In this document: positions 3,201-64,000 of the stretch, piece after piece
Layout of the letters: each line of letters starts with the position of its first letter
How positions within the stretch are numbered: the first letter of the stretch is position 1
DNA from: Poecilobothrus nobilitatus
Lineage: Eukaryota > Arthropoda > Insecta > Diptera > Dolichopodidae
Length of the DNA: 64,000 nt
NCBI GenBank assembly: GCA_947095535.1
Contig: OX352773.1
Span: forward strand, 167,784,438-167,848,437
Reading direction: 5' to 3'
Program-made: the position numbers and the translations under genes
The notes under the pieces: generated by a model
Told to the model about the DNA's origin: nothing
Database searches by the model: none
The model's input: the letters and a program-made list of their open reading frames with translations, nothing else

Positions 3201-4550
3201 ATTTTTAAATTAAAAACTAAAGATAAATTTTTTTAAATAAATTAATAGTAATTATCAGTAAATTAAAAATAATCAGTGTGCTCATATTTATAATCACTTA
3301 TACTTAATATTTTCCCTTTTGTTTTTTTTTTTTTTTTTTTTGTGTGATTATGATTAATTAATAAATATAATTATAATAAAAAATATTTCTTAATAAATAA
3401 CATACATACATACCTAAATAAATCTAAATTAATTTTATTAAATTGTGTAAGAAATAACAAAAATATGAAAAATAAAAAAATTAATATAGAAAAGTATAAA
3501 AAATAGGAAAAAAAAAAAATAAATAAATGTATTTAATGTAATGTACTTAATGATTGCATGCCGGTCACTATTAAAAACACATACAAAACGATAATAAACA
3601 ATAAATTGTTTAACATTTATATAAATTATAAAATAATAAAAAAAATAAATAAATTAAACAAATAATACAAAAAAAAAAGAGTGAAAACAAAAAAAAAAAA
3701 TAAGAAAAAAGAAAATATAAAACTAAATGTTTTTTTTTTTATTTAAGTATACGGTAAAATGAAATCATAACTAAAAGGATACTATTACAAAAAAAAAATC
3801 AAAATCTTAAAATATTTTGTTTGTTTTTTTTTTTTTTTGTTGATTGGAAAAATTGTGGAAATACGTTTTTTTTTTTTATTTCCTGTTGATTAAGTTTTTT
3901 TTTTTTTTTTTTTTTTTTTGTTATTTTTTCAACAAATAGGTTGGAAAAATGTAAAATTACTTTTGATTTCTCTTTCTTTCTTTTCAACAATAAAATTAAA
4001 TAAGTTAAGATTGTTTCATATTTTTTAATTAAATTGAACGAATTTGTGAATTTTAAAGGATATAATCTTGAGTTTTAATGAACAATTTTAGTTTTTCTTT
4101 TTTTTTACTTTTATTTCAGAGCAAAATGACCGTAGAGAAATTTTATCCCTTTTAGGGGGAAAAAAAAAATCATTTAAAGTGTTGATTTTTTTTTTTTCCT
4201 CATTTTATTCTTCCTTTAATAAAATGAAATATATTTAAGGGTTAATTCTATTTAAAGGTGTTATATTAAGATTACTCCTTTTGTTTTAACATTTTAGGGA
4301 TATTACACGATATTTTCGTTTACGTTCGTTCGTACAAGAGAATATACTAAATATTTTAGTTTAGTGTCTATGTTCAATATTTATGTTCTATGTGTCTGTT
4401 GAGATATTTCGTTTTCCAAATCTTTCTTTTTTTATATATCTCTTAATGATGGGTATTTTAATCAGTAATTGTTCAAGTTCAAATTAGATCTTTAAAAATA
4501 TTACTATTTATGATTAAGAAAAGTAGGTTTTTTTTTTTTTTAGTTTAGTT
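241..4550. other. AT-rich gene-free stretch
   Basis: No gene, tRNA or recognisable element is visible. The stretch is very AT-rich with many A or T runs of 10-25 bases (for example near 2087-2105, 3010-3028, 3319-3341 and 3896-3919) and short TA-rich microsatellites near 1790-1806 and 2610-2632. Short open frames here are chance products of lysine and phenylalanine codons from the homopolymers. Confidence 0.7.
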
Positions 4551-4572
4551 TAGTTTATTCTCTTGCGCTATA

Positions 4573-4703
4573 AATGTGACCAGGAAATTACACATAAATG
4601 TAGTAAGAGGATTCTTATAACGTGTGTGACACTCGAATGTACACTCCCTCGGTGCTTATAGGCTATTTTATACGTTCTTATCCACTTGATCATCAAGGCC
4701 GCC
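4573..4703 (-). mobile_element. tRNA-derived SINE, diverged copy
   Basis: On the minus strand this reads as a tRNA-like head with a degraded A box, the shared core 'aacgtataaaatagcc...caccgagggagtgta', a degraded B box and the family body ending in 'tgtgtaatttcctggtc'. It aligns by eye with the copies at 9399-9590, 38853-39024 and 52413-52585, but has the most substitutions and several indels, so it is probably the oldest. SINEs are transcribed by RNA polymerase III and copied by LINE enzymes; that is family knowledge. No target duplication was identified. Confidence 0.75.
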
Positions 4704-4706
4704 ATT

Positions 4707-5245
4707 TTTTTTTTTTTTAAAGCGATAAACTGTATATTTGATTAATTTAAACAACAATATTCAACATTTTCCTTATTTTTTAAAAGTAAATAATGTACAG
4801 AAATGTAAAGAACAAATAAATAGTGGATAGAAATATTTTTGTACACATTTCAAAATGTGTAGAATTTAATGTTTTTTTGTAAAAAGCTTCGAACTGTACT
4901 TAAATTTTAACTTTAAAATTTTTTCAAAAAAAAAAAAAAGAGTTGTCCTTATTTTTGTGATGTCTCATACGAAAAAAAAAATTTGTTTTCTGAACGTAAT
5001 AAAGAACATATGTTTATTTTTATTATCCTAGAAAATTTTTAAATTAAATATGTAGAATAAAATAAATATACGACAAGATGTTACTAATATAACGAGATAT
5101 TATATGTAATGGACAAAATATTACAATTAAAGATAATAATATTGTAGATACATATATATGGCATAGACTTATTAATTAGTTTAAAAGTTTTATTTGGTTT
5201 TTCAACAAGAAAAGTAATTTAGTTTCTTTATATTAAAACTGATAC

Positions 5246-5278
<33 letters not shown>

Positions 5279-8200
5279 CACCATATATTGTAACTGAGAA
5301 CTTTTACTTTATTCTACATACAAGTTTTAAGCAAAATGTATCTATAAGTATATATTATTATGTACATATTTCGAGATTTCTGTTTAGAAGATTTCATTTT
5401 TGTTTTTAAAACATTCTATACAATATTTTACTTAAATAAATATCTAAGTGAAAAATATATACATATATATATATATATAATGCATGTATGTTCATAATAT
5501 TACATACAAGTACAAATATTCTAAAGTATGCTGTATATATATTATTACAAATTACAATATAATATTTTACTTATAAAATCAACATATACTTATACTTATG
5601 TAAAAACATATACTTAGTACCTAAATAACTGTATGAAATATTTATTTTATATAAATATAAAAAACAAAAACAACAAAAAAAAAAAAAAGTTGTAAATCGG
5701 TGTTATTTATTGGACAATTTATTAGCCATTATTACAACGTATTTGTTTTTTATTTTATTATTATTATTTATTTTTTTTTTTTATAATAAATTTTCTTTCT
5801 ATGTTTTGTTTTGTTTTTTTTTTTGTTTTTGTGTTAAAGATTAAAAATGAAAAATCATTGTTTTAAAGTGTAGAAAAAATTTCTTAAAAAAACAAACAAA
5901 AAAAAAAAAAAATTTGTATGGAAAATATTTAAAGAACGCTTATTAGTTATTATAGAAGTTATTAATGTTATACTATTTTAGGTATTTTAAAAATTTAACA
6001 TATAATAGGTATATATATATATATATTTATTTATTTATTTATATTAATATTATTTATATTTATATTAATATTATTTATATTTATATTAATATAGATAGAT
6101 ATATATACATATATGTATGTATGTATATATGCTTTAAATGAAAACAAACAATCAGACATACGAGAAAATCATTCATATTGACCTTATCAATGTGTTTGTT
6201 ATTAACAAAACAAAAATTTTAGCTGTACTTAAAGCAAATTATTTATTTTTTTTATTATATAGGTAGTAAAAATTTTGCGGGAAAGTGGAATCTCGTAAAA
6301 GCTGTTTTTTTTTCACTTAATAATAATAGTTGAGATATTAAAGTTTTGTTTTTTTTTTATATTAATAATATTGTGCAATATTTTTACTTAGATGATGAAT
6401 TGATTTATTATGTACATACCTACTTATTCCATTTTTTTTTTTTTTTTTGATTACACAAAAAATAAACAATAGATCAAAAAGGTTAAAATTAAAATATAAA
6501 AATAAAGTATTAAAATAATAAATAAAAAAAAAATAAAAAAAAAAAGAAAACAAATTATATGAAAATTTAAAAAAAAAAAAGTAAAAGTTTAGATAGAACC
6601 TTTTTATAAAATAAAATTTTTCATGTGGGTAATTTTGTATAGAAATTTTTCATTTTTATGTCGAGAGTAAATGTAAAAAAATATAAATACCAAAGTATTA
6701 GAATAAATTTTTAAACATAAAATCAATAAATGAACATTTGGAGTTGTTTTTTTTTTTTTTTTTGGATTCCAAAATAAATATTAACTGTTCTTTTCATGAT
6801 TTATTTGTTTTTTTTTTGTTTTATTTACATTTTTTCCATAAAAAACAAAAAAATAAATTTTTGGTGGATTTGGATTTTTGTAAATTAATATTTTTCCATC
6901 AAAAATTGTGATTAAAAATGATTTTATTTCTTAATATTTAAAAAAAAAAAACAAAAAAATGTTTTGATCATTAAAAATGAGTTTTCATTTTTTTACGGGG
7001 GACGGTGAAAAATATCGAAAGTTACTTAAAAGTCACTGTACGAGGTTGTTTTAGATAGTGTTGGTCTTTAATCAACCAAAACCAGCCCCTTTTAATTCAA
7101 AATTTTGGATGGGTCCTTTTAAATATAGTTATATTGACATTATGCAAAGTTTGGTTTTGGGAATAAGTAGGATGTGGGAACGAATTTTAGGAATTTGACA
7201 TTTTTTTGTTCCCGTTTCCATTTCTATATGGGTATCTGGGAATATGGGAATAGAATATGGGTATATGGGAATAGGGTATCCACTAGGTTATTTATTACAA
7301 ATATTTGACTAAATATATGATTCTGTTTTTGGAATCATTAAATTCACATTAAACCGTTGATTACTCGGCTGTATTTCAATTCAAAAAATTATTTTTTTTG
7401 CACTTAAGAATACGATAAAATTAGGTAGTAAAAATTCGGATATGTTTTTTTTTTTTAAAAATATTTTTACATTGCCCGTAGGAATTGGAATTCATTGAAA
7501 GAGAAATTACATTACATTGCCGGTAGTAGAATCTATTGAAAGAAATATTTTGAAGTATTTAGATATAGGATCTACTTAATGTATGTTTAGAAAATGAAGT
7601 GTTATATTTTTTTAATCAAAAATAAGTTAGAATAAAAATATATTGCAATATGAATATGTATGTACTTAGCAGTTTATTTATTTTTTCCGGCGTTTATAGG
7701 AAACTACCTATTAGATTAAGTGTAGGACTAATGGGTTTTTTTTTAATTATGTATTACGATTTTCAATTACTTTGAAGAAATAATTTATATCTTATTTTGT
7801 TTGTTTTCTTTAATATTTTTGGTATCATTTGGTTGTTTTTTTTTTTTTGTTGTAGCTAATATACGAGTACTTACAAATATTTTCTTTTAAATTTTCTTCT
7901 TATATTTTTCGTACGATATAATTAAAGATCATTGATTATTCATAAGTATAGATAAATAAATGAAAGATATATTGATAAATCTTTGATAAATTTAATAACT
8001 TCTAATAAATAATAACTATAATTTCTTTGTGAAGATTTTTTGATTTATACTATACCCAAATTTAAATACCCGTTTTTGTAAGAAAATTTCATAAGAAATC
8101 TCAAGAATATGTAGACGTAATATAGTAACTTATGGTATCGCAATCAGTTAGCTGAGTCTATAGGTCAAATCTATACTTATCTATAATTTGTGAATATAAA

Positions 8201-10775: not shown

Positions 10776-12390
10776 TCTAAGAACTACGTTTGTGTGGGTA
10801 TATAAACTAACATTTTTAGTTACTGCATGGTATTTGCAGTAAGTATATCATATTTCTTGTAATAATTTTGAACTCGAAATTTGTATAAATACGTATATAC
10901 ATATAAGATTATTCCGAATACGTGCGGTATCGGCTTTTATAAGAGTTCGTTGACGAATGTCGAATAGAATTCGAATTAAAGTAATTGTATTTTGATCAAA
11001 TTTCACGGCTTAAGCTAACAGGAAAGACAACATCTTAATACATCAATATTATCAAAGATTTTCAGAAAAGCTAGGAATATTTACAAATTGTGATATTTTA
11101 TCATAAATAGTTGTAAATTTTCACATTTAATACATATATTAAATGCTTATAATATAATTTTTAAAAAAATATTCTGTGAGTTAAAAAAAAATTAGTAAAA
11201 AAAAAGAATTTCTTATAGAAATGAGTACCTACTAAGCTTTTAAAATTTTTTCTTTCAACTTTTTTCTTTTTAAAATTTCTATAATAAATTGGCTGCGTTC
11301 AGTTAAATCAAGCAATGATGAGTTGAAGTACTTAAAAAATTGTTGGTGCAAAAATATTACTAAACATTTTGCAGCAAAATTTAAATATGACATTTGCCAT
11401 GACCATTTTGTATTTATTTTAATATTTTATTTGTCATAAACTAAAATATTTTTATATTTAAATACAAAACTTTTTAAAAACAAATAAATCATCACAGCTA
11501 CTAAATTTAAAGCGCTTTACTCAACTGAATGGCAACTATTGATATTATGATTTTTTCAAAATTTATAGTAGGAATAGTAAATTTTGTTAATATTAAACCA
11601 TGCATTCTTAACGAACTTACACTAAACCTGACAATTTCAACTCGTTATAATGTTGAGAAGTGGGAATTTGAATTGGACCCTCCTGTTAAGCTATTAGCCC
11701 GATAAAGCGAGCTAAATAAAAGCATTAAAAATTTTTAAAATTAATTTAAAAACAACCCTTTTTCTTAAATTGCAAAAATTTAATAACAAACAGATTCAAA
11801 TATACTTATATTAAGGACTTCAAATAACTAGTTATTGTTTCAAAAAAAAAAAAAACAAATAAAAACTTTTATATAATGAGCTTCCCTTTACGGAAACGAT
11901 AACAACTTTTCGTTAAAACAAAAACAACCATAAGTATAATACCGTAAACAAGTAAAAGATTAAGTTTTTTTTTTTGAAAATGTTTTCCCAATCAATCAAA
12001 GTATAAATAAAAAGTGATTTTTCACACATTTGTGACACAGTGATTGAACAAATAAACACTCTATAGTCTATAAAATACACAAATCCAGGACAAATTTATT
12101 GATTAATCAATTTCCAATAAAAAAAAAAGATTGTTTAAAACACGATTCTCTAAGTGTTGTGGTTGACAAATTATTTGAATTGAAATTTCCTAAATTTTTT
12201 TTTTATTTTTGTTTAGTTAATGTTATGATTTAGTTCAACTGAAAATTTCTTTTTAAAATTAAAAGAAAACCAGGCAAAATGTAAACCAACAGTTTTTAAA
12301 GAAGGTACATTTCCAAAAGACAATACAAAATGTTTAGAATTGTGACTTTGCATTAAAATTTGAAAATTTCATACATGTAATAAGAATAAA
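10776..12390. other. Gene-free stretch with a possible MITE
   Basis: Mostly AT-rich with no gene. At 11290-11538 an imperfect inverted pair is present: 'ggctgcgttcagttaaatcaagc' on the left and, on the complement of the right side, 'gccattcagttgagtaaagc'. About 14 of 19 core positions agree, and no target duplication is evident, so a roughly 250-bp MITE is possible but weak. At 11685-11715 there is a short inverted pair around 'ttagcccgataaagcgagctaa'. Confidence 0.4.
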
Positions 12391-12830
12391 TGTGAAAAAT
12401 AAAGAGACACTTTCTTGCATTTTAAGGGAACTCTATACATAATTAAGAAAAAACCATTAACACATGTAAAATTATAAAGATGAAGCCTTAATTTTTGCCT
12501 TTTATTTTGTAAAAATTTGTACAGGTGTCTAAAAATAGCAAATTTTCAATTTTTGAATCCTAACAGCTCTTAAACAGGTGGTGGTTAACACATTTAAATA
12601 GGGTATTTGCAACGTTTGAGGGTCTGTATAGCACCGTAATGGATGGGATTACATGGAAAACTTATTCTTCAACATTAATTTTTTTATGAGACCTACCGAT
12701 AATAAAAATTTCATCTTTAACGGTGTAGAAGTTTTGTAAACAGACAGACAGACAGACGGACGGACGGATGGTTAGAATGGAATTAAAAGGCACATTTTTT
12801 CAATTTTTTTTTGGAAATGTGCTAAAAATT
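12391..12830 (-). mobile_element. Helentron-like element, type III body
   Basis: On the minus strand it begins 'tttttagcacatttccaaa', carries a (GTCC)/(GTCT) block at 12748-12771, then 'acaaaacttctacaccgttaaaga', 'atcggtaggtctcataaaaaa', 'cccatccattacggtgctata', and later 'tttttagacacctgtacaaa' and 'cttaattatgtatagagttccctt'. The same motifs occur in the same order at 62274-62980, and looser versions at 22831-23420 and inside the full-length elements at 19996 and 50374. It has no coding potential. Confidence 0.68.
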
Positions 12831-19995: not shown

Positions 19996-21556
19996 TACCC
20001 GTACGATAGGATCGGGTATAATAAAATTACTCCTCCGTTTGTAACACCTCGAAATAAGCGAGCTAGATATACCTTCAAAGGTATGGATCGGATCAGAAAA
20101 AAATTCTAAGACTTTTGAGCCATGTCCGTCCGTCCGTCCGTCCGTCAGCACGCTAACTCAAAAACTAAGAAAGCTAGAATCTTGAAATTTACACAAAATA
20201 TTTTGGGAGTAATTTGTAGGTTCCCTATTTTTTTTGGTTGAGTTTGGACCAAGCCTTAGGGTAGCTCTCGAACACCTAACTTTTAGATCTCCACAATTTT
20301 TTTGCAATAGAGCTATGAAATTTTAACTACTGATAGATCTCACAAAAATATTAATTTTATTTTTAATAACTTTTTTTTGTAGCCCCACCCGTTACGGAGC
20401 TACAGCTCCCCAAAGGTTCAAAAAAGCTCTATATTTAAATTGTTATAGCACAAGTTGTATAAGGTATATCTTCATTTTGAAAACGCCAAACGATTACTAC
20501 TTTCATTAGCTTTAAAAGTATATATACAATAAATATATATTTGTGGCATACGGTGTCTTAATTTACCGTTATGCGAAACTCAAATTTTGCAAAATTCTTT
20601 AACCCTTCCATCTTCTAAACGGTTAAAGTTGGAAACTTTGACAGAAGTTAGATCTTTGAAAATAAGTATGAGTCATTTCAGAAATTTTTTTTGTATCACC
20701 CCCCGTTTAGGAGCTGTAAGGGGTCAAAAACTGAAAATTTCCTATTTTTAAACACCTGTAACTTGAACACCTGTTAAAATTTTTTTGAAGTAATACACAA
20801 AAATTAAAGCTCCAACATTATATTTTTATTTCTGTTAACAACTTTTTTTAATAATATAGGGTTACTTTATAATTGACGAAAGTGTTACTTGATTTTTTCA
20901 AATTTTCTAACAAATTTCATTAACGAATTTTTTCCATTTTGTTTTACTCGATAATTTGAAATTGTTGAGGATATAATGCGTAGTACAAAAAAATGTAATT
21001 AAATAAACAACATAACGGTTGCTTGAAGAATTTTTATTTATATGATATTGATATATATACATACTTATATAAAATCATGTTTATTTACATATCGTATATG
21101 TCACTAGTGAATGAATGATAAGAGTATAGATGTATATTATATAGCGCCGTATTTACATACACATATGTATTTTATTGTACTTATAAGAAATTATTCTGTC
21201 AATGGAATATTTAAATATAATATAATATTTAAAATTATATTTACTGTTTTGTACTTAGTAAATTTAATATACATTTACCGCTTAGTATTAAATGGTACTA
21301 TAGAATATTTGAAAAAGTTTTGGATTGATAATCGTTATGTGGAAGGTTAGAATCTGCTTTTGAAGAATGGTCATATAAACATATAGTTTGAATATATGTA
21401 CAACCCATAGTTCTAGAAATTATAAAATTCACCCTAATTATTTTAAAATACTAAAATATTAAAAAAATAATATTGTAAGCAGAGTGGCTGTGAACATACT
21501 AACGGTTCGTACGGGTATCTAAGAGTTGACAAAGTCAACTGTATTCTTCCTCGTTT
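19996..21556 (+). mobile_element. Full-length Helentron-like non-autonomous element, copy A
   Basis: About 1.56 kb, closely matching copy B (50374-51965) throughout. The 5' end has acccgtacga (19997-20006), inverted near the 3' end as tcgtacgggt (21507-21516): subterminal inverted repeats. A 3' hairpin follows (agttgac-aaa-gtcaact, about 21523-21539) and the element ends 'cttcctcgtt'. It contains 'gtataataaaattactcctccgtttgtaacacc', then five GTCC units at 20124-20143, then 'aactcaaaaactaagaaagctag'. No replication or helicase frame exists, so it depends on an autonomous partner if mobile. Subterminal inverted repeats, a 3' hairpin, no target duplication and T|T insertion are hallmarks of Helentron-associated elements (DINE-1/mini-me group); the assignment is inference. 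Confidence 0.75.
20124..20146 (+). repeat. (GTCC)5 microsatellite in copy A
   Basis: Five GTCC units plus GTC. The otherwise closely matching copy B has nine units at the same place (50502-50540), so the tract changed length after the two copies separated. Confidence 0.9.
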
Positions 21557-22830: not shown

Positions 22831-23420
22831 TTTTTAGCACATTTTCCAAAAAATATTGAAAATTTTGCTTATTAGTTTCTCTCTGTCTATCGGTTCATCC
22901 GTCTGTTTTAGATAGATACAAAAAAGATCCCCTAAAAATAATGAACGTTTTAAATTACCTAAATGTCAATATAAAAATGTCCAATTTTTCAATATAAAAA
23001 TGTCAAACATCAAGACACTTTTTTAATTTTATGTATCCCTATATCAAGATTGTACAAATATTTGCAATTTAGTATTTAAATTTACCGTTATATGAGAAGA
23101 TCAAATTTTCCAAAGATTTTGCTTTCTTTATAAACTCTAGTATGCTTTTAGATGAAACGAAAGATCTTTTAGAAATTTTGATTAAGAAAGTTGCCTTAGA
23201 AAACGTGTTTGTACCTCCTCTCTCTTTTTAAGAACTCTTCAAGGCAAAAAATTTAAAATTTTCTTTTTTTTTAGACAGCTATCTTTTGTTCAGGCACCTG
23301 TACAAATTCTTTCAAAATAAACCGTAAAAAATAAAACTTTAACATTATAAATTTGTATGTCATAACAGCTTTTCTTAATTATATATACTGTTTCTTCAAA
23401 ACTGAAGACAGTCTTTCATC
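22831..23420 (+). mobile_element. Helentron-like element, type III body
   Basis: It begins 'tttttagcacattttccaaa', followed by 'gtctatcggttcatccgtctg', a diverged (GTCY) block. Further in are 'aaatttaccgttatatgag', 'taagaactcttcaaggc', 'caggcacctgtacaaa' and 'cataacagcttttcttaattatatata'. The same motif order occurs at 62274-62980 and in reverse at 12391-12830. It starts immediately after the end of the type II copy. The 3' end is unclear. Confidence 0.6.
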
Positions 23421-25519
23421 AGTTTTGATATTTATTTTTTCTAACATACGAAAATATAGAAAATTCTAAACGGTTTTTATTTTTATGTGGAAAATATGTG
23501 CATTTTTAAAAATCTTTGATTTTACATTCTATCTTATTTTTCTTTTTTTTTTTTTTGTATTTTGAAATAAAATTCTATTATTGACCACAGCTAATAAATA
23601 TTTTGTTGTATTAAAACAAGATTTTTCCAACTTTTTCTACAAAAAAAAAAAAAAAAAAATTTTTCTTCATTTTCTTTTTTTTTTATTAATTCTATTTCCC
23701 AAATTTATCGCGAAAAAGAAAAAGAAATAACAAAAAAATCTATAAAAGTAATTTAGATACTAAAAATAAAATTGTTTACTAATTCTTAAATTATTTCTTT
23801 ATATACACAAAAATTTATTGTAAAAATTTTTTCTTAGAAATTAAAATCGCTTGTAATAAGAAATTGTTTGCGTAAAAAAAAAATTGATTTGAAACGCATG
23901 AAATGAAAATGTATTTAGAGAAAAAAAATTTTTTTTTTTGTTTTTTTTTTGTATAAATTAAATAAATCTAATTATTTACGCAATCAAACTATAATATTTA
24001 TGAAATGTTTAATTTTATATCATAAATTTGAATGAAAATATACAAAAAAAACAATTAAAAAATAGAAAAAATAATATGAGGTTCACCATAGCTAAAAAAT
24101 GAAATGTTTATTATATTTACAAAGAAACATTTTAGTAAAATAAATAACAATTCATAAATTTTATAAAAATAAATCAATAAATTTTTTTTTTTGTTTTTTT
24201 TATACTTAATTTTATTTTTTTTCTTTTTTTTCTATTTATTTTTAATTTTTCTTATAGAAAATAAATTTATATTACATGTGTTGTGTGCAAAAAAAATTTT
24301 AAAATCAAAAATAAAACAAAGAAAAAATAAAATTTTTATTTTTTTATTTTTATTTTTTTTTTTTGAAAAAAGGAAAAATTAATTGAAAAATTATTGACCC
24401 AAATTACTCAGATAAAAGGGTATTGAGTGAATAAATAAGTGTAAAAAAAGAAAAAAAAAAAACTCAAAAAAAAAAAAAAACAAAAAGTGAGTAAAAAAAA
24501 AAATAAACAAAAACCCGGAGATTAGATAAAATATTGTGCAGATTTTTTTATTTTATCTTTGTTTAAATTTGGAATTTTTCAAAAAACTTTTGTACCCGAT
24601 CTAATAAAGGTAAATATTTATTTTAAAAATTGGTTCTAAAATATTTTGTTTGTATTCTTTTTTATTTTATTTGTTTTTTTTTTTTTTTTTCTGTAAATTT
24701 TTATCAAAATAGAATAAAGTTAATAAACTATTTTTTTTAGTTTTTTAGTTTTTTTTTAGTTTTTTATCGTATAAAATAGTTTTGATTCAGAAAATCAGTA
24801 AAAAAAAACTCGTCAAAAATGGATGATCGTAAAAATAAAGAGTTTTAAAGGGTTGCTGGGAATTTGAAAAAGGATTCAATAAAAGTTTTTCTTTTTTTCT
24901 TTTTAATATTTTTAGTTTTTAAAGAAAATTTGTTGATAATTTTTAATGTACTTTTTCGGAAATAAGTTGTTTAAAAACAAATATTAATATTTTTGGGTTT
25001 CCAATTAACAGTTTGATTGGTAGTTATTGTAAAAAATTCTGGTTGAAATCTATTTTGAAAAATTTATAAGATGTCATTTAAAGGTTATAACTATTTTATA
25101 GCCAAAATTTAAAATGAGTTAAAAGAGACTTTTTTTTTTTTAAAACGGTAAAACGGTGGTTTTTGGTTAAGGTAAAATTATGATGGATTTAGAAAAAAAG
25201 TGTGATGGTATATAGTCAATAGTGTATTAAGTAGATAATAAATATATGAGAATAATAGTGTGTTATATAATATTTTAAAAGTTTTAATTAAAAATATTTG
25301 CACTCTGATTAGTATACTTGGCAACATTAACCGGCGTTGCTCAAGAAAAATTTAAAAGTTTTTGGAGAAAAAACCACTTCACATTATTTTTTTTTTTTTG
25401 ATTTAGGGAAAGAATATATTGTATTAAAAAAAATTTTTTATGGGAGTTATTTTTTTTTATGGGAGATTGTTAAAATTTAAGCATAAAAATTTGGAACAAT
25501 CATCAAAAAACGAAAAATT
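23421..25519. other. AT-rich gene-free stretch
   Basis: No gene recognised. Dominated by A/T runs (for example 23640-23660, 24182-24240, 24455-24480 and 24675-24690) and 'ttttttagttttttagttttttt' near 24733. The short frame at 24191-24382 is a homopolymer artefact. Confidence 0.7.
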
Positions 25520-35329: not shown

Positions 35330-36474
35330 GGCATATTAATGGGCTTAAGGAGCTAGTCTCGGGTTCGGGTAATGGGCGGGTTCGAGTAGCTGCCATACAA
35401 CTTCTATCTTTATATAGAAATAACTCAGTATCTATTCAAGCTACGTTTCTGAAATTTTGCAAATGATGATCAAGTTTTATGGCAACAACTTCTGTAAAAT
35501 TTGGTTGTGCTGGTAAGGCGGGTTCGGGTAGCTGCCATACAACTTCTCCGTTTAAATGAGAATAACTCAGTGTTTATTGAAGCTAGGAATCTGAAATTTA
35601 GTAAAGAGTTGCCGAGTTACATGCCAACAACTTTTTTAAAATTTGGTTGGTCTATAGCAGCCGGTTCAGGCTTCTTGCACTTCTTGGAACCTAATGAAGC
35701 TAGGCGTCTGAAATCTTGCAAATGATGATCAAGTTTTATGGCAACAACTTCTGCAAAATTTGGTTGTGGTGGTGCGACGGGTTCGGATAGCTGCCATACA
35801 ACTTCTTTTTTTAAATGAAAATAACTCAGTGTCCGTCCACACGATAACTCAAAAAATAAAGGAGCTAGGAGGCTGAAATTTTTTTTACGTCACTTTTGCA
35901 AAATTGTTAGTTTTTCTATTTAAATCCAACATTTTCGGTCGGCGGGTTCGAGTAGCTGCCATACAACTTCTATCTTTATATAGAAATAACTCAGTATCTA
36001 TTCAATCTAGGTATCTGAAATTTTGCAAATGATGATCGAGTTTTATGGCAACAACTTCTGTAAAATTTGGTTGTGATGATATCACAGGTTCGGATAGTTG
36101 CCATACAACTTCATACAACTTCATACAACTTCATACAACTAAATGAAAATAACTCAGTGTCTATTGAAGCTAGCTATCTGAAATTTAGTGAAAAAGTGTC
36201 GAGTTGCATGCCAAAAACTTTTGTAAAATTTGATTGGTCTAAAGCAGCCGGTTCAGGCTTTTTGCATTTCTTGGAACTTAATGAAGCTAGGCGCAATAGA
36301 TTCGGGTAGTTAACATACAACTCCACAATTTACATAAATATATCTCTGTAGTTCGGTACAAAACATCTGAATGTTTTTAAAAGATGATCAAGTTTTATAG
36401 AAACAGGATATATTACGTTCATACGGGTATCCCAGAGTTGACACAGTCTACTCTACTGCACTCTTCCTCGTTTT
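35330..36474 (+). mobile_element. Helentron-like element, type II, with internal tandem units
   Basis: Six units begin with variants of 'gcgggttcgggtagctgccatacaacttc' near 35376, 35519, 35779, 35941, 36086 and 36301, each followed by 'aataactcagt.tctattgaagctag', 'ctgaaattt' and 'gccaacaactt.tgtaaaatttggttg'. The block from 35941 to about 36297 repeats the order of 35376-35710, so the array grew by duplicating two units at once. A (catacaactt)4 tract lies at about 36103-36140. The 3' end has 'tcatacgggtatcccagagttgac', a hairpin-like 'agttgac-aca-gtctact', and 'cttcctcg' before T's. Open frames at 35501-35725 and 36067-36309 are by-products of the repeat. Confidence 0.75.
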
Positions 36475-37895
36475 TAATATAGAAATGAAATATTAAAGAA
36501 AACTATGGGCAACAAAAAAGAGAATGCATAGCATCTACTAACATTAATTTTTTATTTTTTATAAATTTCGTAATTTTTTACATAATTTTTTTTTGCGTCT
36601 TTTTTTTGGATTTGTCAGACTTTAGTTCTGCATAAATTGTTAATTTTATTATAGGTTAATTTTAGGATACAATAATTTAAAGTTTTGTTCATATTCAGTA
36701 CAATTATATTTTATTGTTTTTTTCTTTTGGTTTTTTCTTTTTTTATATTTATTTATTATACAATTAAACAATTCTTTGCTGGTATTCATACACAATTGTT
36801 ATACGACATGTTGAAACAATTAAAAAAAAAAAAGAACAAAAATAAAAATAATACAAAGATATAAATTAAAATTTTTTGACACTTCAAGTTGTCAAGTTTT
36901 GCTATCACTGCTATCTTCTTACAGTATATAATGTTTGCTATATGTACACCATAAAGTTATAACTTGCCGCTTGAGAACAAGAAAATTTAACAAAAAACGA
37001 TAAAACATCAACATTCAAAAGAAATTCATATCTTTTTGTTTTTTTTTTTGTTTTTTTTCCTTCTTATTGTTTTTGTATTTTGATTTTATTCTGGTTACTG
37101 TTCCTGCCGTCAAGAAAAAAAATTTTACCACCAAACAAACTAAAAACGAAATAAAAACAAAAAAAAAAACAATGAAACAAAAAAAAAACAAAAACAAAAC
37201 AAAAGCAAGAATTCTGTTTTTATATATTAGAATAAATTTTACTTAAAATCTTTTATTTAAGAAAAAAAAAAAAAAACTTCCTCCTTTCTCTTTCTATCGT
37301 TAATAAAACATGGAATTAAATTCGTTAGGTTAAGATTAGATGATAACTAAAATGAAAAAAAATAAAAGCAAAGAATCTGTTGATTTAAGATGCAAAAAGA
37401 GTAAAGTGGGGATTGGTTTATTTGAAGCATGAAAAACAATGATGATGAGTACTGACTACTGTATATTTTAAAATGTATTTTCTATATACTTCCCGTTTCA
37501 TTTAATATTTTTTATAATAAAAGGAAAAGAAAAGGGAAAACGAAAGGAGATAGGCAAAGTATAAGATTTTTATAAAAGTAAAAAACGACAAACAAAAAAA
37601 AAAAAAAACAGTAAAAATAAAAAATATACACATTATATTAGAATTGTAATAAAGATGGCATATCTTATAATTTTAAAATAAAATTTTTTAAAAGGAATCG
37701 CGTTTTAAGGCGAAAAATTAATTTCATGAGAAAGAAACAAAAAAACTCCTAAAAGAAACTTAAGGGACCGTAAACGTATTTTTTTTTGTATTGCAGAATG
37801 TAATTTTTCAATACAATATTTTTTTTTTTTTTATATGCAGTGAAAATTTCGGGAGCTAAAATGAACGGTTTTACTTTAAAACAATTTCATAATAA

Positions 37896-50373: not shown

Positions 50374-51965
50374 TACCCGTACGATAGGATCGGGTATAAT
50401 AAAATTACTCCTCCGTTTGTAACACCTCGAAATAAGCGAGCTAGATATACCTTCAAAGGTATGGATCGGATCAGAAAAAAATTCTAAGACTTTTGAGCCA
50501 TGTCCGTCCGTCCGTCCGTCCGTCCGTCCGTCCGTCCGTCAGCACGCTAACTCAAAAACTAAGAAAGCTAGAATCTTGAAATTTACACAAAATATTCTGG
50601 GAGTAATTTGTAGGTTCCCTATTTTTTTTGGTTGAGTTTGGACCAAGCCTTAGGGTAGCTCTCGAACACCTAACTTTTAGATCCCGACATTTTTTTTGAA
50701 ATAGAGCTATGAAATTTTAACTGCTGATAGATCTCACAAAAATATTAATTTTATTTTTAATAACTTTTTTTTGTAGCCCCACCCGTTACGGTGCTACAGC
50801 TCCCCAAAGGTTCAAAAAAGCTCTATATTTAAATTGTTATAGCACAAGTTGTATAAGGTATATCTTCATTTTGAAAACGCCAAACGATTACTACTTTTAT
50901 TAGATTTAAAAGAATATATACAATAAATATATATTTGTGGCATGCGGTGTCTTAATTTACCGTTATGTGAAACTCAAATTTTGCAAAATCCTTCAACCCT
51001 TCTATATTCTAAACGGTTTAAGTTGGAAACTTGAAATTTTGACAAAAGTTAGATCTTTGAAAATAAGTATGAGTCATTTCAGAATTTTTTTTTGTATCAC
51101 CCCCCGTTTAGGAGCTGTAAGGGGTCAAAAACTGAAAATTTCCTATTTTTAAACACCTGTAACTTGAACACGTGTTAAAATTTTTTTGAAGTAATACACA
51201 AAAATTAAAGCTTCAACATTATACTCTTATTTCTGTTAACAACTTTTTTTTAATAATATAGGGTTACTTTATAATTGACGAAAGTGTTAGTTGATTTTTT
51301 CAAATTTTCTAACAAATTTCTTTGAAACGAATTTTTTCCATTTTGTTTTACTCGATAATTTGAAATTGTTGAGGATATAATGCGTAGTATAAAAAAATAT
51401 AAATAAATAAACAACATAACGGTTGCTTGAAGAATTTTTATTATTATTTATATGATATTGATATATATACATACTTATATAATATCATGTTTATTTACAA
51501 TATATCGTATATGTCACTAGTGAATGAATGATAAGAGTGTAGATGTATATTATATAGCGCCGTATTTACATACATATATGTATTTTATTGTACTTATAAG
51601 AAATTATTCTGTCAATAGAATATTTAAATATAATATTTAAAATTATATTTACTATTTTGTACTAAGTAAATTTAATATACATTTACCGCTTAGTATTAAA
51701 TGTTACTATAGAATATTTGAAAAAGTTTTGGATTGATAATCGTTATGTGGAAGGTTAGAATCTGCTTTAGAAGAATGTACATATAAACATATAGTTTGAA
51801 TATATGTACAACCCATAAGTTCTAGAAATTATAAAATTCACCCAAATTATTTTAAAATACTAAAATATTAAAAAAATAATATTATAGGCAGAGTGACTGT
51901 GAACATACTAACGGTTCGTACGGGTATCTAAGAGTTGACAAAGTCAACTGTATTCTTCCTCGTTT
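50374..51965 (+). mobile_element. Full-length Helentron-like non-autonomous element, copy B
   Basis: Closely matches copy A over its whole length. Subterminal inverted repeats are at 50375-50384 (acccgtacga) and 51916-51925 (tcgtacgggt); the 3' hairpin agttgac-aaa-gtcaact is at about 51931-51948, and the end reads 'cttcctcgtt'. It interrupts family E copy 2 between T's of 'tattatttttt|acttttaat', with no target duplication visible, which is what Helentron-type insertion predicts. It differs from copy A mainly by point changes, a (GTCC)9 block and a few AT indels. No protein is encoded. Confidence 0.8.
50502..50540 (+). repeat. (GTCC)9 microsatellite in copy B
   Basis: Nine GTCC units plus GTC between 'gagccat' and 'agcacgctaac'. 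Copy A has five units in the same context. Confidence 0.9.
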
Positions 51966-56726: not shown

Positions 56727-57186
56727 GATAAATATAGATAAAGCTATAAAACAAGTTTTTGTTATCCTGCGCGTTTAAGTAATGTTAATCAACAGATATT
56801 TTTCCAAACTTCTAAAAGAATTATAAGTTTTTTTATAGTCCGTTAATAATCAAATTAACTAAACTAAAAGGAATTGAAATTAAGAAAGTAAAAGATATTG
56901 TATTTTCAGATTTTCAATCGCTAACAATATTCTCAATAGCTCAGCTTTTAATTTATTATATTCCGTCCATTATTCTGTAGAAAGAAAACAAGACCAAGTT
57001 AAACAAATGTTTAATATAACTTCAGTTTATTTTAAAAAATGGCTGTTTAAAATTAACTCGAATAAGTGCAAAAGTTTATCATTTATAGGTGTTCATCTGC
57101 ATTAAATTTTAAAATATATGGCCCATAAGTAATTTGAATTTCTAAAGGTATTCATGGCATAAAAGAAGTTGTTTTATAATAAAAAA
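56727..57186. other. AT-rich gene-free stretch
   Basis: Nothing recognised between FB2 and the next Helentron-like element. Confidence 0.6.
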
Positions 57187-57922
57187 ACGAGGAAGAGTGC
57201 GGTAAAGTAGACTGTCTCAACTCTGGAATATCCGTAAGAACGTATTAAATGCTGTTTCCATAAAACTTGGTCATCTTTTTCAGAATTTTAGAAATTTTAG
57301 TACCGACGTTAATTACCCAGATATATTTATGTAAAATTTGGAGTTGTATAACAGCTGTCCTGAGCTGGTGCACTAGCACAACCAAATTCTACAGAAGTTA
57401 TTGCCCTAAAACTTCATCATCTTTTGTAAGATTTCAGATGCCTAGTTTCTATTAACTTCGAAGATGTACAAGCTACCTGAATCTGCTTCTCTAGCACAAC
57501 CAAATTTTGCAGAATTTGGTAGTATACAACTTGACATCTTTTAACTAAATTTCAGATACTTAGCTTCAATTGACACTGAGTTATTTTCATTTAAAAAGAG
57601 AAGTTGTATGGCAGCTACCCGAACCTGTCGTACCAGCACAACCAAATTTTAAAAGTGTTGGTCTCCTGTAACTCGTCACCAGTTTGCAAAATTTCAGATA
57701 CGTAACTTCAATGGACACTGGTTCAAAATGCTGGTTTTGCATAGCGAAACTAACAATTTTGCAAAAGTTACTCAAAAAAATTGCAGCCTTCTAGCTGTTT
57801 TCTTTTTTGAGTTATCATGCGAACGTACATGACTTAATCAACTCAGAATTCAAATTTTGAGTCTACATCTAGCTCGACTTCTTTAAGGTGTCATAAGCAT
57901 AATGGCAAATTTATTGTATCCT
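57187..57922 (-). mobile_element. Helentron-like element, type II
   Basis: On the minus strand it begins 'gatacaataaatttgccattatgcttatgacacc', continues 'ctcagaattt...ttgattaagtcatgtacgttcgc', 'gataactcaaaaaagaaaacagctag', and several units with 'ggttcgggtagctgccatacaacttc' and 'aataactcagtgtcaattgaagc'. Its 3' end is 'ttacggatattccagagttgagacagtctact' followed by 'gcactcttcctcgttttt' (57187-57230), the same terminus as the 35330-36474 copy. Frames at 57267-57455, 57587-57775 and 57891-58079 are repeat-derived. Confidence 0.75.
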
Positions 57923-59655: not shown

Positions 59656-62273
59656 ACTTTCTTCAAATGGTTATAAAAATTCAAATTAATAACAATTAAA
59701 TTTTTTGAATAAATTGATACAAACAAGGATTTTGCAACAACATAAATATATTTTGGATTTAAAACGATTAAATAGTTCAGTTCTGTTTTTTCTTATTTAT
59801 TGTTACTTATTAGTTTTCTTTTAAAGAAAATTCTAAAAACAAAAATAAAACTTTTAGAATAATATTATTTAATTAAAGTACTATTATTTCGACTATATAT
59901 ACTATTTTATGTTTGAGTTTTTGTATAAAATAATGAAAATTAAATATAAATGGGTGACTGAAAATCTTCTATGATTTGTTCTTTCAGACCGATGTGTGAG
60001 TTGGTAATAACTAACATAAAATATTAATATTTAAACTGTGAATTTAAGAGATACAATGAAGCATCTAAAATAGAATTCTTCCGTTTTATATTTTTATTTT
60101 AATTTAAATATTAAATTTTTACACTTATGTTATTCAATTTTTGAAAACAATTGATGCTAATAGTATTACCCAAAATCCGATTAATAAGTTAGATACACTC
60201 AAGATTTTAACCAGGATTTTTAATTATCTTAATGGTAGGTAGGTCTAGGTAGGTATAAATTATTTTAATGGTAAGTAGGTAGGTAGGTAGCTGGCTGCAT
60301 ATGCACACTTAGGCCAGTTTAATATCAGATTTTCAGATTTGTTTTCTCATAACTAAACTATTAGAAGCTTATTACAAAGCTCTGCAAAACGATTAAGCCC
60401 ACCTCCGACAAATCAAAAAGATTATTTCAGAAGAAAATTTCTTATTTTGAGAGCAAGATCTGGCCATTCACAGAAAAGGTAAACGATTTATTTTTCTTCC
60501 TGTTTATTTTTGTAACTTCTCTCAAAGTCATATAAGAACAGTTCTAACATTCAGGCATGTCTGCGGATAGCAGTGTCTGCTTGAACCCATTTTACATTCT
60601 TGGTTTTGCGGTGTTTTAGTTATCCAATTTAGGTGAATTGAATATCACAAAGATCAAGTCAGGTGAATTGAAAAAAAGTTATTAAAACGTTATTAAAATA
60701 TCTTATTTCGAAATTATATATAAAACTTAAATAGCACTTTTTGTGGAATGAAAGCATCTATACATACAGTTCCAACACAATACATAAGTTTTTTTTTAAA
60801 TTTGTATACAGCATAAACATAATACGTATAATAAATGATGATTATGGTAATACTTAATTTAATATATAATAATCCACTGAAATAAAGTTTATTATTATTT
60901 TATAGGTAACTTAAAAAAAGAGTTTAACATTATTTCAAATTATTAAATCCCACCAAATTTCTTTTACAGACAAAAAAAAACAAGTCAAATTTTGAAACGC
61001 TAAGCTTTGAGGCAATTGAAAAAATTCTCATATTTTTGCACTTTCCTTTTCTTTTCATATATCGAAAGTTAGATACAAAATCTGTAATACAAAACAGAAA
61101 TGACACTGAAGATGGATTCATAAAAAAAATCAATTTGTTGAAGTACTCTCAACCATTTCTATAAATTATTTTAAGTATTTCGCGGTATTATCTAGATTTT
61201 ATATCTAAATATACCTACTTCTTTTTGAAATGAAATGACGAGGTGATTTTAAATTATTTATCATATACAATTTTAAATTAATTATAATTTAAATTTATTT
61301 CTAAATAATTAACACCATTTAAAAAAATCATTATCATACCACAAGTCGACGAAATCAAAAATAAAAATTTAAAAATTTTCAATAAATTTTAATGGATAGA
61401 GGGAAGAGATGTTTCAGCAGATCAAAATTTAAGAAATAATTGTACGAGAAAATGGTGACTATTCTCAACTGTCTGTATTAAAGAGTTAGGGTGTTAAAGA
61501 GTTTTACACTGACACTTACACTTATTTATCATGCCAATAAAATCAAAATATTATAAGATAGAATAAAACGGAGTAGAAAATTTTAAAACTTATTAAACTT
61601 CAAAATAATTATTTTTGTGCTGTAAAATGCCTTCTCTCCTATATTTGGAGCATACTAATCGATAGTAGACCAAAAAATATAAAAGTTAGATATACTGAAA
61701 AATTCTTTTAAATTCATAGACATGAAACTAAACGAACATAAATATTGGGAGTAAAAAAAATTTCTGAGACCATATATTTTTAAATGGTATAAAATAGATG
61801 TCATTTTCTTTCTTATCACCTGAACCACCTTTAACTCCTTGTTAAATTTATATCGAAACGCCCTGCATAAAAGTAAATCACTTTATCAGTAGTTACAATG
61901 TTGCACTGACCTTTAGTAGAATAGAATAAAAAAGTAAATAATTATTTGATCTTAAAACTGAGAGATTTAGAAAATGAAAAAGTATACTTATAATATCAGA
62001 CATGATGTTAACTTTGATGAGTTGAATAATTTTCTCTTTGCTATCCAGTTTTATAATAATTTCAAGCAAATGTTACAATTAACTTATAACATATGTATCG
62101 CAGTACTAGGATTTCTTGAACTTTCAACCATTGATTGTGTTTTTCACTATTGTGTAAACTTTCGATAAGATTTATTTAATCATATCTGATTAGAGTAACG
62201 AAAGATGTATTTAGAATCTTGTTCATTGTTTTATTTCTTAAAAAAAAAAAAAACTTTAGATATAAGTATAAAA
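59656..62273. other. Gene-free stretch with a (GGTA)n patch
   Basis: No gene recognised. A degenerate (ggta)n repeat is at 60233-60292 in two blocks separated by 'taaattattttaatggtaa'. 60350-60620 is less AT-rich ('gagagcaagatctggccattc', 'ggcatgtctgcggatagcagtg') but no frame or family could be assigned. The 64-codon frame at 61974-62168 has no recognisable motif. Confidence 0.5.
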
Positions 62274-62980
62274 TTTTTAGCACATTTCCAAAAAAAATGT
62301 TGAAAAAATGTCTCCATTAGTTTTAAGCTGTTAGTCTATACGTCTGTTTACAAAACTTTTACACCGTTAAAGATAGACAAATGAAATTTTTATCATCGGT
62401 AGGCCTCATAAAAAAATTAATGTTGCAGAACAACTTTTTCATGTAGTCCCATCCATTACGAAGCTACAGCCCCTCAAACTATGAAAAATCTCTATTTGTA
62501 AATGTGTATATCTCATGCTCTGATGCTTATCATTTTGTCAATTTAAATAAACTCCATTCAACAGGATTTTTTTTTATCTTTGTAAATTTGTAAAATTATA
62601 CAATCATTTTAAATTTAGAATTTAAATTTACCGTTATAATCAAATTTCGAATTATTTTTCTTTCTTTATAATTCCAGCATGCTTAGAGATAGAGACTTGA
62701 AATTTTGAGATAAGAAAGAACTTTTAGAATTAGCATAAGTTTTCTCAGAAATTTTGTTTTTCACCACCCTCTGTTTAAGAATTATTAGGGTTCAAAAATT
62801 TAAAATTTGCTATTTTTAAACACCTTTAACTTAGACATCTGTATACATTTTCTTCGGTAAAACATTAAAAATTAAAACCCCAGCTATATGTTTTTACGTG
62901 TGTCAACGGTTTGCCTTAATTATGTAGAGTTCCCTTAAAATTGATAAAAGCGTTTCTTTATTTTTAGCATTTTTTCTTAT
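62274..62980 (+). mobile_element. Helentron-like element, type III body
   Basis: Begins 'tttttagcacatttccaaaa', then 'gtctatacgtctgtttacaaaacttttacaccg', 'atcatcggtaggcctcataaaaaa', 'cccatccattacgaagctacagcccctcaaac', 'aaatttaccgttata', 'tttaaacacctttaacttagacatctgta', and 'cttaattatgtagagttcccttaaaattga'. The later motifs also occur in copies A and B ('cccacccgttacggagctacagctcccc', 'aatttaccgttatg', 'aaacacctgtaacttgaacacctgt'), so type III is a shortened relative of those elements. It ends right next to FB3. Confidence 0.68.
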
Positions 62981-62991
62981 TTTATGAAATT

Positions 62992-63418
62992 GGGAGCGGG
63001 TCACAATCCTGGACGCCAAAATCAACCTGCGACAAAATCTTGGTTTGTTTTTTATCTTGCATTACAAAATCTATCTTTCTAAAATCTTGCATTATAAAAT
63101 CTTTCACAGACAAAATCTTGCAAAATATTTTTAAAACAATAGATTATGGCTTTGTTTTTAAAGTATGTATAAACAAATAGTTAAAAAGGATTTTAGAGTT
63201 GGATTGAAAAGCATGGTTATGAGGGATTTTAATGTTGGATTCAAAAGCAGGTTTACCGCTTTTTACAGAATATTTATATATAAGAATATGTGACATTCTG
63301 AATTACATGCAAGATTTTGTCCTAGTAAAAATTTGAAAAAAAATTTTGTTTTAAAAGATTTTCGAAAGGAAGATTTTGTCGCATTAGATTTTGACGTAAA
63401 AGATAATGTAGCAAACCC
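62992..63418. mobile_element. Foldback-like element FB3 with perfect 9-bp target duplication
   Basis: The direct repeat TATGAAATT flanks it exactly (62983-62991 and 63419-63427). The ends are GGGAGCGGG and, on the complement of the right, GGGTTTGCTAC. The left arm (about 63010-63135) is a tandem of 15-16-base units based on 'aaaatcttgcattac'; the right arm (about 63305-63410) carries the complement ('gcaagattttgt', 'gaagattttgtcgcatta'). Between them lie about one and a half copies of the unit found in the centre of FB2. No frame is present. At 427 bp it is the most compact and best delimited of the three foldback elements. Confidence 0.85.
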
Positions 63419-63427
63419 TATGAAATT

Positions 63428-64000
63428 CTAACAAAATTTTCAAATTTTGATGTAAGTCACACAGCTCTAAACAGTTTGTATTGTCTTTCCGAAATTTGCA
63501 ATTTTAAAACCCATTTGTTTACATTCTGCCTTGTTTTTTTGTTTTATTACTTTTCTCAATTTTTACGCTAATGTCAAGTTTGTTAACTTATATAACATGT
63601 ACCTATAACAGTGATCTTGAAAAAAAAAATTTAATGAATAACAATCAATTCTGTTACATAATTACAAAAAAAAAAAAATTTTATGTTTTTTTTTTTTAGT
63701 TTATATAAGATCGTAAAATTCATTTCTACCCACACAAATTTAATTCTTTAATTTTACACCATTTTATAATTGGCTTTATCTTAAATTTTTATGTATACAT
63801 AATATATATATATTTTTTTTAATACCCAATTCATTCTTTTTATATTATCCGCATGGTATCCTCAGAAATCGCTATGTTGAGTACAAAAATTAATAAAAAT
63901 TGAGTAGAAATGTATAAAGAAGAAATTTATTGTTATCATTTTATAAACTAGACATTTAGGCAATGTATACATTTTTTACATAAATTTAATCCTGGAAAAT
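63428..64000. other. AT-rich gene-free end of window
   Basis: No gene recognised; A and T runs at 63667-63681 and 63690-63699 and a (TA)-rich patch near 63801-63813. Confidence 0.65.

Follow-up and report, generated by a model that had tools for sequence, protein, structure and literature searches.

The 427-bp sequence that lies between two exact copies of TATGAAATT in the 64-kb stretch of DNA analysed here (the window) is very probably, as judged from its sequence, a non-autonomous Class II transposon: a MITE with foldback arms that belongs to the Phantom-type Mutator (MULE) group. This placement is made because coding elements with the same arm unit, kept in the same register from the tip, carry FLYWCH and MULE domains; the Phantom-type placement of those coding relatives rests in turn on domain architecture and homologs. 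The Phantom group of MULEs is reportedly that of Marquez and Pritham from 2010. Regarding the term foldback, it denotes a shape and not a lineage: the element belongs to this structural class by its opposed tandem-repeat arms, able to fold back, and it is a MITE by its length, its lack of a frame of at least 90 amino acids and its 369 left tips. In addition, the 9-bp duplications found in its family lie within the 8-10 bp of Phantom-type elements.

The element starts with GGG and ends with CCC, running GGGAGCGGGT...TAGCAAACCC, and its parts are collected in Table 1. Both arms are opposed tandem arrays of CAAAATCTTGCA-type units of about 15 bp, and the tips do not form a simple inverted-repeat pair (GGGAGCGG vs GGGTTTGC). 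Counted from the left tip, CAAAATC cores with at most one mismatch are found in the window copy at 10, 25, 41, 73, 88, 103, 119 and 129 bases; counted inward from the right tip, they are found at 25, 40, 55, 70 and 99 bases. When an 11-base core was sought with up to three mismatches in 40 copies of the family, the commonest unit spacings were 15 (87 times) and 16 (60), then 10 (33), in the left arm, and 15 (88 times) and 14 (44) in the right arm; forward cores numbered 276 in left halves vs 99 in right halves, and reverse cores 233 in right halves vs 113 in left halves. As single-stranded DNA, the element folds at -52.8 kcal/mol, compared to -38.1 (sd 4.5) in 100 shuffles (z -3.29), none of which folded as well. 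The foldback architecture that an earlier note on this DNA had described is thereby borne out, as is its remark that the copy contains no transposase, no stop-to-stop frame of at least 90 amino acids overlapping the element. The window has 23% GC, with CpG at expectation, and Rfam and tRNA scans over its whole length gave no matches.

Table 1. Features of the element and of the repeat into which it is inserted, in positions of the window.
Feature	Position	Strand	Evidence or remark
Host repeat, left part	62267..62990	+	older, very abundant; element inserted into it
Left copy of the 9-bp target-site duplication, TATGAAATT	62983..62991	+	exact repeat; family-wide duplication test
Whole element, 427 bp	62992..63418	+	no frame of at least 90 aa; 369 left tips recognisable genome-wide
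Left tip, family majority GGGAGCGGGTCACAATCCTGCACGC	62992..63016	+	24 of 30 both-ended copies aligned; 369 genome matches
Left arm, tandem CAAAATCTTGCA-type units	63017..63131	+	cores start near 63017, 63033, 63065, 63080, 63095, 63111
Core, two 36-bp direct repeats (63177-63212, 63213-63248)	63132..63307	+	
Right arm, CAAAATCTTGCA-type units inverted	63308..63393	-	cores (leftwards) near 63393, 63378, 63363, 63348, 63335, 63319
Right tip, inward reading GGGTTTGCTACATTATCTTTTACGT	63394..63418	-	tip alignment and tip comparison
Right copy of the 9-bp target-site duplication, TATGAAATT	63419..63427	+	exact repeat
Host repeat, right part past the insertion	63434..63538	+	
Host-repeat paralog elsewhere in the window, continuous over the insertion point; TATGAAATT present once	12263..12588	-	

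The element belongs to a dispersed family with fixed tips. Its left tip, taken as a 32-nt pattern with at most three mismatches, occurs at 369 places in the 943.8-Mb assembly (84 contigs), compared to none for the reversed pattern. A DNA search of the same assembly with the element gave 1784 candidates, 40 of which were scored, yielding 54 matches in 40 places, and all 40 were read (the window copy and 39 others). Ten copies without one or both tips (at most four mismatches of 12 per tip) were left out. Of the remaining 30 both-ended copies, 18 are flanked at the fixed borders by direct repeats of 9 bp that differ in one position at most, and in 11 of these the repeat is exact. When left and right flanks were re-paired in 5000 trials, the mean was 0.16 and the maximum 3, and exact flank repeats of 5-8 or 10-12 bp were found just 0-2 times among the 30 copies. 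Twelve copies miss the 9-bp repeat at the fixed borders; three of these (L024, L043 and L047) have an exact 9-mer after one border is shifted by one base, and another (L042) after the left border is shifted by four. The targets of the 18 duplication-bearing copies are AT-rich, with no clear motif. Moreover, the 24 copies that were aligned out of the 30 are 81-95% identical in pairs (mean 90%), and their conservation ends at the proposed element borders. The 9-bp duplication is a property of the family. The certain borders and the staggered 9-bp cut claimed beforehand from this one copy agree with these data, and the further copies anticipated in the genome do exist; the 9-bp duplication for which the earlier note wanted every copy tested is present in many of them but not in all. 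In exact-pattern scans of viral contigs, a 16-mer of the tip was found at nine places, roughly the chance level estimated for a collection of that size, and the arm unit pair at none.

The insertion interrupts an older host repeat, for which the genome search gave 12324 candidates and scored 40; the median identity among the 29 copies fetched is about 85-90%, and the repeat has a GTCC microsatellite near its start and a partial internal duplication. Within the window, it is represented by five whole or partial copies (62267-63538, 12263-12830 on the minus strand, 20307-20897, 23046-23551 and 50701-51299), and pieces of it were also observed in the flanks of several fetched MITE loci. The joined flanks of the element align over the junction in all 29 of the other paralogs fetched, and ATGAAA occurs near the junction exactly once in 25 of these 29, not at all in three and twice in L073. 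Immediately to the right of the insertion, the window has some 11 bases (63428-63438, CTAACAAAA-like) that are absent from most of the host-repeat paralogs inspected, which are therefore not perfect empty sites. Better ones are given by L006 and L007, where TATAAAATT occurs once and is followed by CTAAGAAAA or CTACGAAAA (CTA(A/C)GAAAA), while the window reads at the same place TATGAAATT, element, TATGAAATT and then CTAACAAAA; L015 and L026 likewise span the insertion point. That these 11 bases are kept similarly in L006 and L007 hints at two lineages of the host repeat. Empty sites, which the earlier note wanted examined for one copy of TATGAAATT, do exist, all those compared being paralogous and none orthologous.

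Other repeats were noticed in the window. Positions 20124-20423 and 50518-50817 are 98% identical over 300 bp at a distance of 30.4 kb, and 20632-20849 and 51033-51250 are 97% identical; together, the two pairs suggest a recent duplication. Segments 35355-36500 and 57183-57720 (inverted) hold partly tandem repeats of about 142 bp with GCCATACAACTTCT motifs, and 3.9 perfect copies of CATACAACTT lie at 36102-36140, with related inverted blocks about 21 kb off.

Besides compact copies such as that of the window, the family has longer members. An internal segment of about 120 bp is common to four of five longer copies and present in part in the fifth (L034), and a further internal segment is shared by L034 and L038. 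A second query led to twelve loci, including the place of L034 itself, 11 of which have both arms and measure 596-1022 bp; at the remaining one (L069), a left arm was not found. Those 11 loci carry core repeats of about 85 bp, more than one in most of them, and also, ahead of the right arm, a further segment of some 210 bp; their longest stop-to-stop frame has 112 amino acids, far below transposase size. By comparison with these longer members, in which the core region holds more of the repeats of about 85 bp and additional segments, the window copy is a compact internal variant of the family. In a separate observation, L101 carries open frames at about 4144-5999 that resemble, by eye, a Ty3-like reverse transcriptase and integrase, as well as the right arm of a MITE (196-325), which is separated by almost 2 kb from core repeats (2231-2746).

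The core repeat of the MITE (about 85-135 bp) is also found, 79-86% identical, in a second MULE family, where it lies upstream of the transposase gene; two copies of that family were read (C8:162.09 Mb and C2:114.83 Mb), and its arms consist of a different unit of about 16 bp. It is conceivable, if rather doubtful, that the core is an exchangeable cargo module, with interiors swapped between Phantom-type families and the tip register conserved. Against such swapping, the core repeat is found elsewhere too, outside MITE-family and MULE elements, so it may be a dispersed repeat acquired by both. Family A/B (L114-L119), proposed as the partner of the element for its MITE core, was rejected, as its arms are built of another unit and as the core repeat occurs outside these elements too. 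At C8:162090729-162093974 (G000; L114, L116 and L117), a MULE element was observed whose long foldback arms consist of a different unit of about 16 bp, of the GGACATTT-GCAAAA type. Its tips are GGG...CCC, and scanning showed it to be flanked by an exact repeat of 8 bp, TCGTATAT.

The coding relatives were recovered with the Pfam MULE profile (PF10551), which gave 390 candidates in the genome; 150 were scored, all of them above the cut-off, and five loci, one per apparent family (L103-L107), plus eight others (L108-L115) were read. The closest of those read is L103, a 2213-bp stretch between two copies of ACTAAAAAT, with left end GGGTTGGGG... and right end, read inward, GAGAGCGG..., a GGG start and arms of opposed CAAAATCTTGCA-type / CAAAATCTTGC units. 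It contains an intact open frame of 469 amino acids, in which FLYWCH scores 48.8 bits (cut-off 23.6; 8.1e-13) and MULE 57.7 bits (cut-off 27.6; 1.7e-15). ACTAAAAAT is the only exact 9-mer in the 160 x 160 border scan of L103, and 25 shifted scans average 2.0 chance 9-mers, so that it gives no evidence of a duplication by itself and takes its weight only from its position next to the GGG tip and the arms. For L104-L107, too, scanning turned up exact 9-mers at their ends, which are no more certain than the one of L103; as duplications, those at the ends of all five loci were given little weight, being expected by chance from the shifted L103 scans. Near the L103 element (L103:137-754), an open frame of 206 amino acids was noticed with the look, by eye, of a Tc1/mariner-type transposase.

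Both FLYWCH and MULE are present in four of the five loci (L103, L104, L106 and L107), and MULE only in L105. Arm similarity to the MITE at E < 0.001 was obtained for L103 only among these five; L104 and L106 possess both domains with other arms, which means that the FLYWCH and MULE combination is more widespread than the CAAAATCTTGCA-type arm unit. L107 has GGG...CCC tips and both domains, and its protein shares 37% identity with the L103 protein. Among named homologs of the L103 transposase, the three with the best scores come from flies, namely the hoverflies Episyrphus (46%) and Eupeodes (52%) and the fruit fly Bactrocera (46%), which makes a fly the probable host. Within the genome, five full-length matches to the L103 protein are 98-100% identical, one of them with an inner stop (115 matches listed, from 91 scored of 1131 candidates). 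L103-type elements look recently active, and the MITE copies are older.

In tip comparisons, the family-majority left tip agrees with each of the two tips of L103 in 24 of 32 ungapped positions, a level reached nowhere in 62.9 kb of the window on either strand (maximum 20), and the window copy's own left tip matches the right tip of L103 at 23 of 32. The right tip of the MITE against the left tip of L103 gives a weak 21 of 32, reached at two places in the window, and 14 of 25 once the first unit core is excluded, a level met at 411 window places. Meanwhile, CAAAATC cores lie at 10, 25 and 41 (left) and 25, 40, 55 and 70 (right) in the MITE, at 10, 25, 40 and 54 (left) and 25, 41, 59 and 75 (right) in L103, at 10, 40 and 55 (left) and 10, 25, 39, 54 and 70 (right) in L107, and at 25, 41, 56 and 71 in the 3' end of L110, the only end of it compared; none is present in the first 140 bases of the left ends of L104, L105 and L106. 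The unit register of about 10, 25, 40 and 55 bases from the tip is the stronger link between the MITE and these coding elements, compared to the letters of the tips. L103 shares the units with the MITE, and its tips are similar and not identical to those of the MITE. The hint of the earlier note at a MULE- or FB-type partner agrees with the FLYWCH and MULE coding elements that share unit and register with the MITE, and the longer coding copy with the same ends that it had envisaged is matched in coding capacity but only approximately in the tips.

As expected from MULE biology, a larger relative elsewhere in the genome would supply the FLYWCH and MULE transposase, whose FLYWCH domain would bind the phased CAAAATCTTGCA-type units in both arms; the transposase would then pair the GGG...CCC tips and excise the element by cut-and-paste. 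The ends would be joined to a target cut with a 9-bp stagger, and repair fill-in would produce the 9-bp duplication. For the foldback-like element Galileo, footprinting placed one transposase binding site, and more sites were identified in the tandem repeats of its arms, according to the relevant part of PMC3688188; by analogy, a reading of the MITE arms as binding arrays is plausible, although the protein differs. A protein of the L103 type may thus bind the units and may have moved the window copy.

There are about even chances that the element was moved instead by a Phantom-type element of its own, extinct or unlisted, L103-type elements being cousins and not partners, which is a refinement of the best explanation. 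The burst of the MITE is older, as its copies are on average 90% identical, compared to 98-100% for full-length L103-type frames, and the L103 tips match those of the MITE at just 24 and 21 of 32 positions. Moreover, a MULE gene inside exactly MITE-family tips was not found among the 100 of 369 left tips listed and the 150 of 390 MULE candidates scored, where no left tip lies within 16 kb of a MULE place and the nearest pair is 16.2 kb apart; on the other side, this compares both sets in part only. The age of the MITE copies and the lack of a pair nearer than 16.2 kb suggest that the direct partner may be unlisted, more diverged or extinct.

Far less probable is a family of another superfamily (P/Galileo-like, Merlin or hAT) in which foldback arms evolved independently. 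In the P superfamily, with Galileo, the target duplication is 7-8 bp, whereas it is 9 bp in the MITE family, and the same unit and end register recur in the FLYWCH and MULE elements of this very genome. On the side of this reading stand the foldback-like arms of Galileo (PMC3688188) and the statement in PMC3169594 that foldback elements do not form one lineage. Finally, a chance coincidence of a 9-bp repeat and inverted arms without any insertion, for which a window of 23% GC rich in short repeats might be invoked, is already refuted by hundreds of copies with the same tip, by duplications specific to a length of 9 bp, and by paralogous sites without the element.

Drosophila FB elements have tandem-repeat arms and a 9-bp duplication, and the MITE is like them in both of these structural features. 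The letters of its unit and tips gave no description in a text search of open-licence papers, in which one unrelated paper matched. The architecture itself has been published, as seen in the excerpts of two sources on Tm1 (PMC3169594) and on Muta1 and Muta5 (PMC5225508), and the earlier note's impression that nothing comparable was described must be given up. Tm1, a Phantom-like Mutator/Foldback element of Meloidogyne, is described in that portion of its source with composite arms of units of about 14 bp, 9-bp duplications and a FLYWCH and MULE protein (PMC3169594). Its MITE-like class Tm1-ML resembles the present family in variable unit numbers, asymmetric tips outside the units and 9-bp duplications, and Tm1 also in having non-coding MITE-like copies beside a FLYWCH and MULE coding copy as well as empty paralogous sites; it differs in its unit (CGATTCAGTATCGC vs CAAAATCTTGCA here), its tips, its root-knot nematode host and its low copy number (PMC3169594, same portion).

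Muta1 and Muta5 of Aedes aegypti, in the part of the source used, have subterminal units of 12 and 15 bp, 8-9-bp duplications and hundreds of derivatives (PMC5225508). The likeness resides in subterminal arms of tandem units with a short terminal motif and in the more than 300 and more than 200 non-autonomous derivatives; for the arms of Muta, however, inverted repeats of 145-151 bp are described, and the likeness is one of described structure. Phantom MULEs, as covered by the section of PMC6446971 consulted, share the FLYWCH and MULE protein, here present in the coding relatives, the 8-10-bp duplications and variable arms. Likewise non-autonomous and of foldback shape, Tetris of Drosophila virilis has duplications of 8-10 bp and tandem repeats in its interior, and was put in Mutator because of these features; its repeats are different and longer (TIR-220), and the excerpt of PMC4079207 reports no coding copy there, in contrast to the coding relatives found here. 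The MITE family is therefore filed as new, of an already known kind, by comparison with the literature.

The picture of how foldback MITEs work is left unchanged by this element. Within a single genome, a gene-less foldback MITE can be linked to coding FLYWCH and MULE relatives with the unit in register from the tip, and the register of about +10, +25, +40 and +55 holds across coding families with proteins about 37-58% identical to the L103 protein. For the question of whether foldback arms consist of arrayed binding sites of the transposase, the MITE and its relatives thus offer a good natural test.
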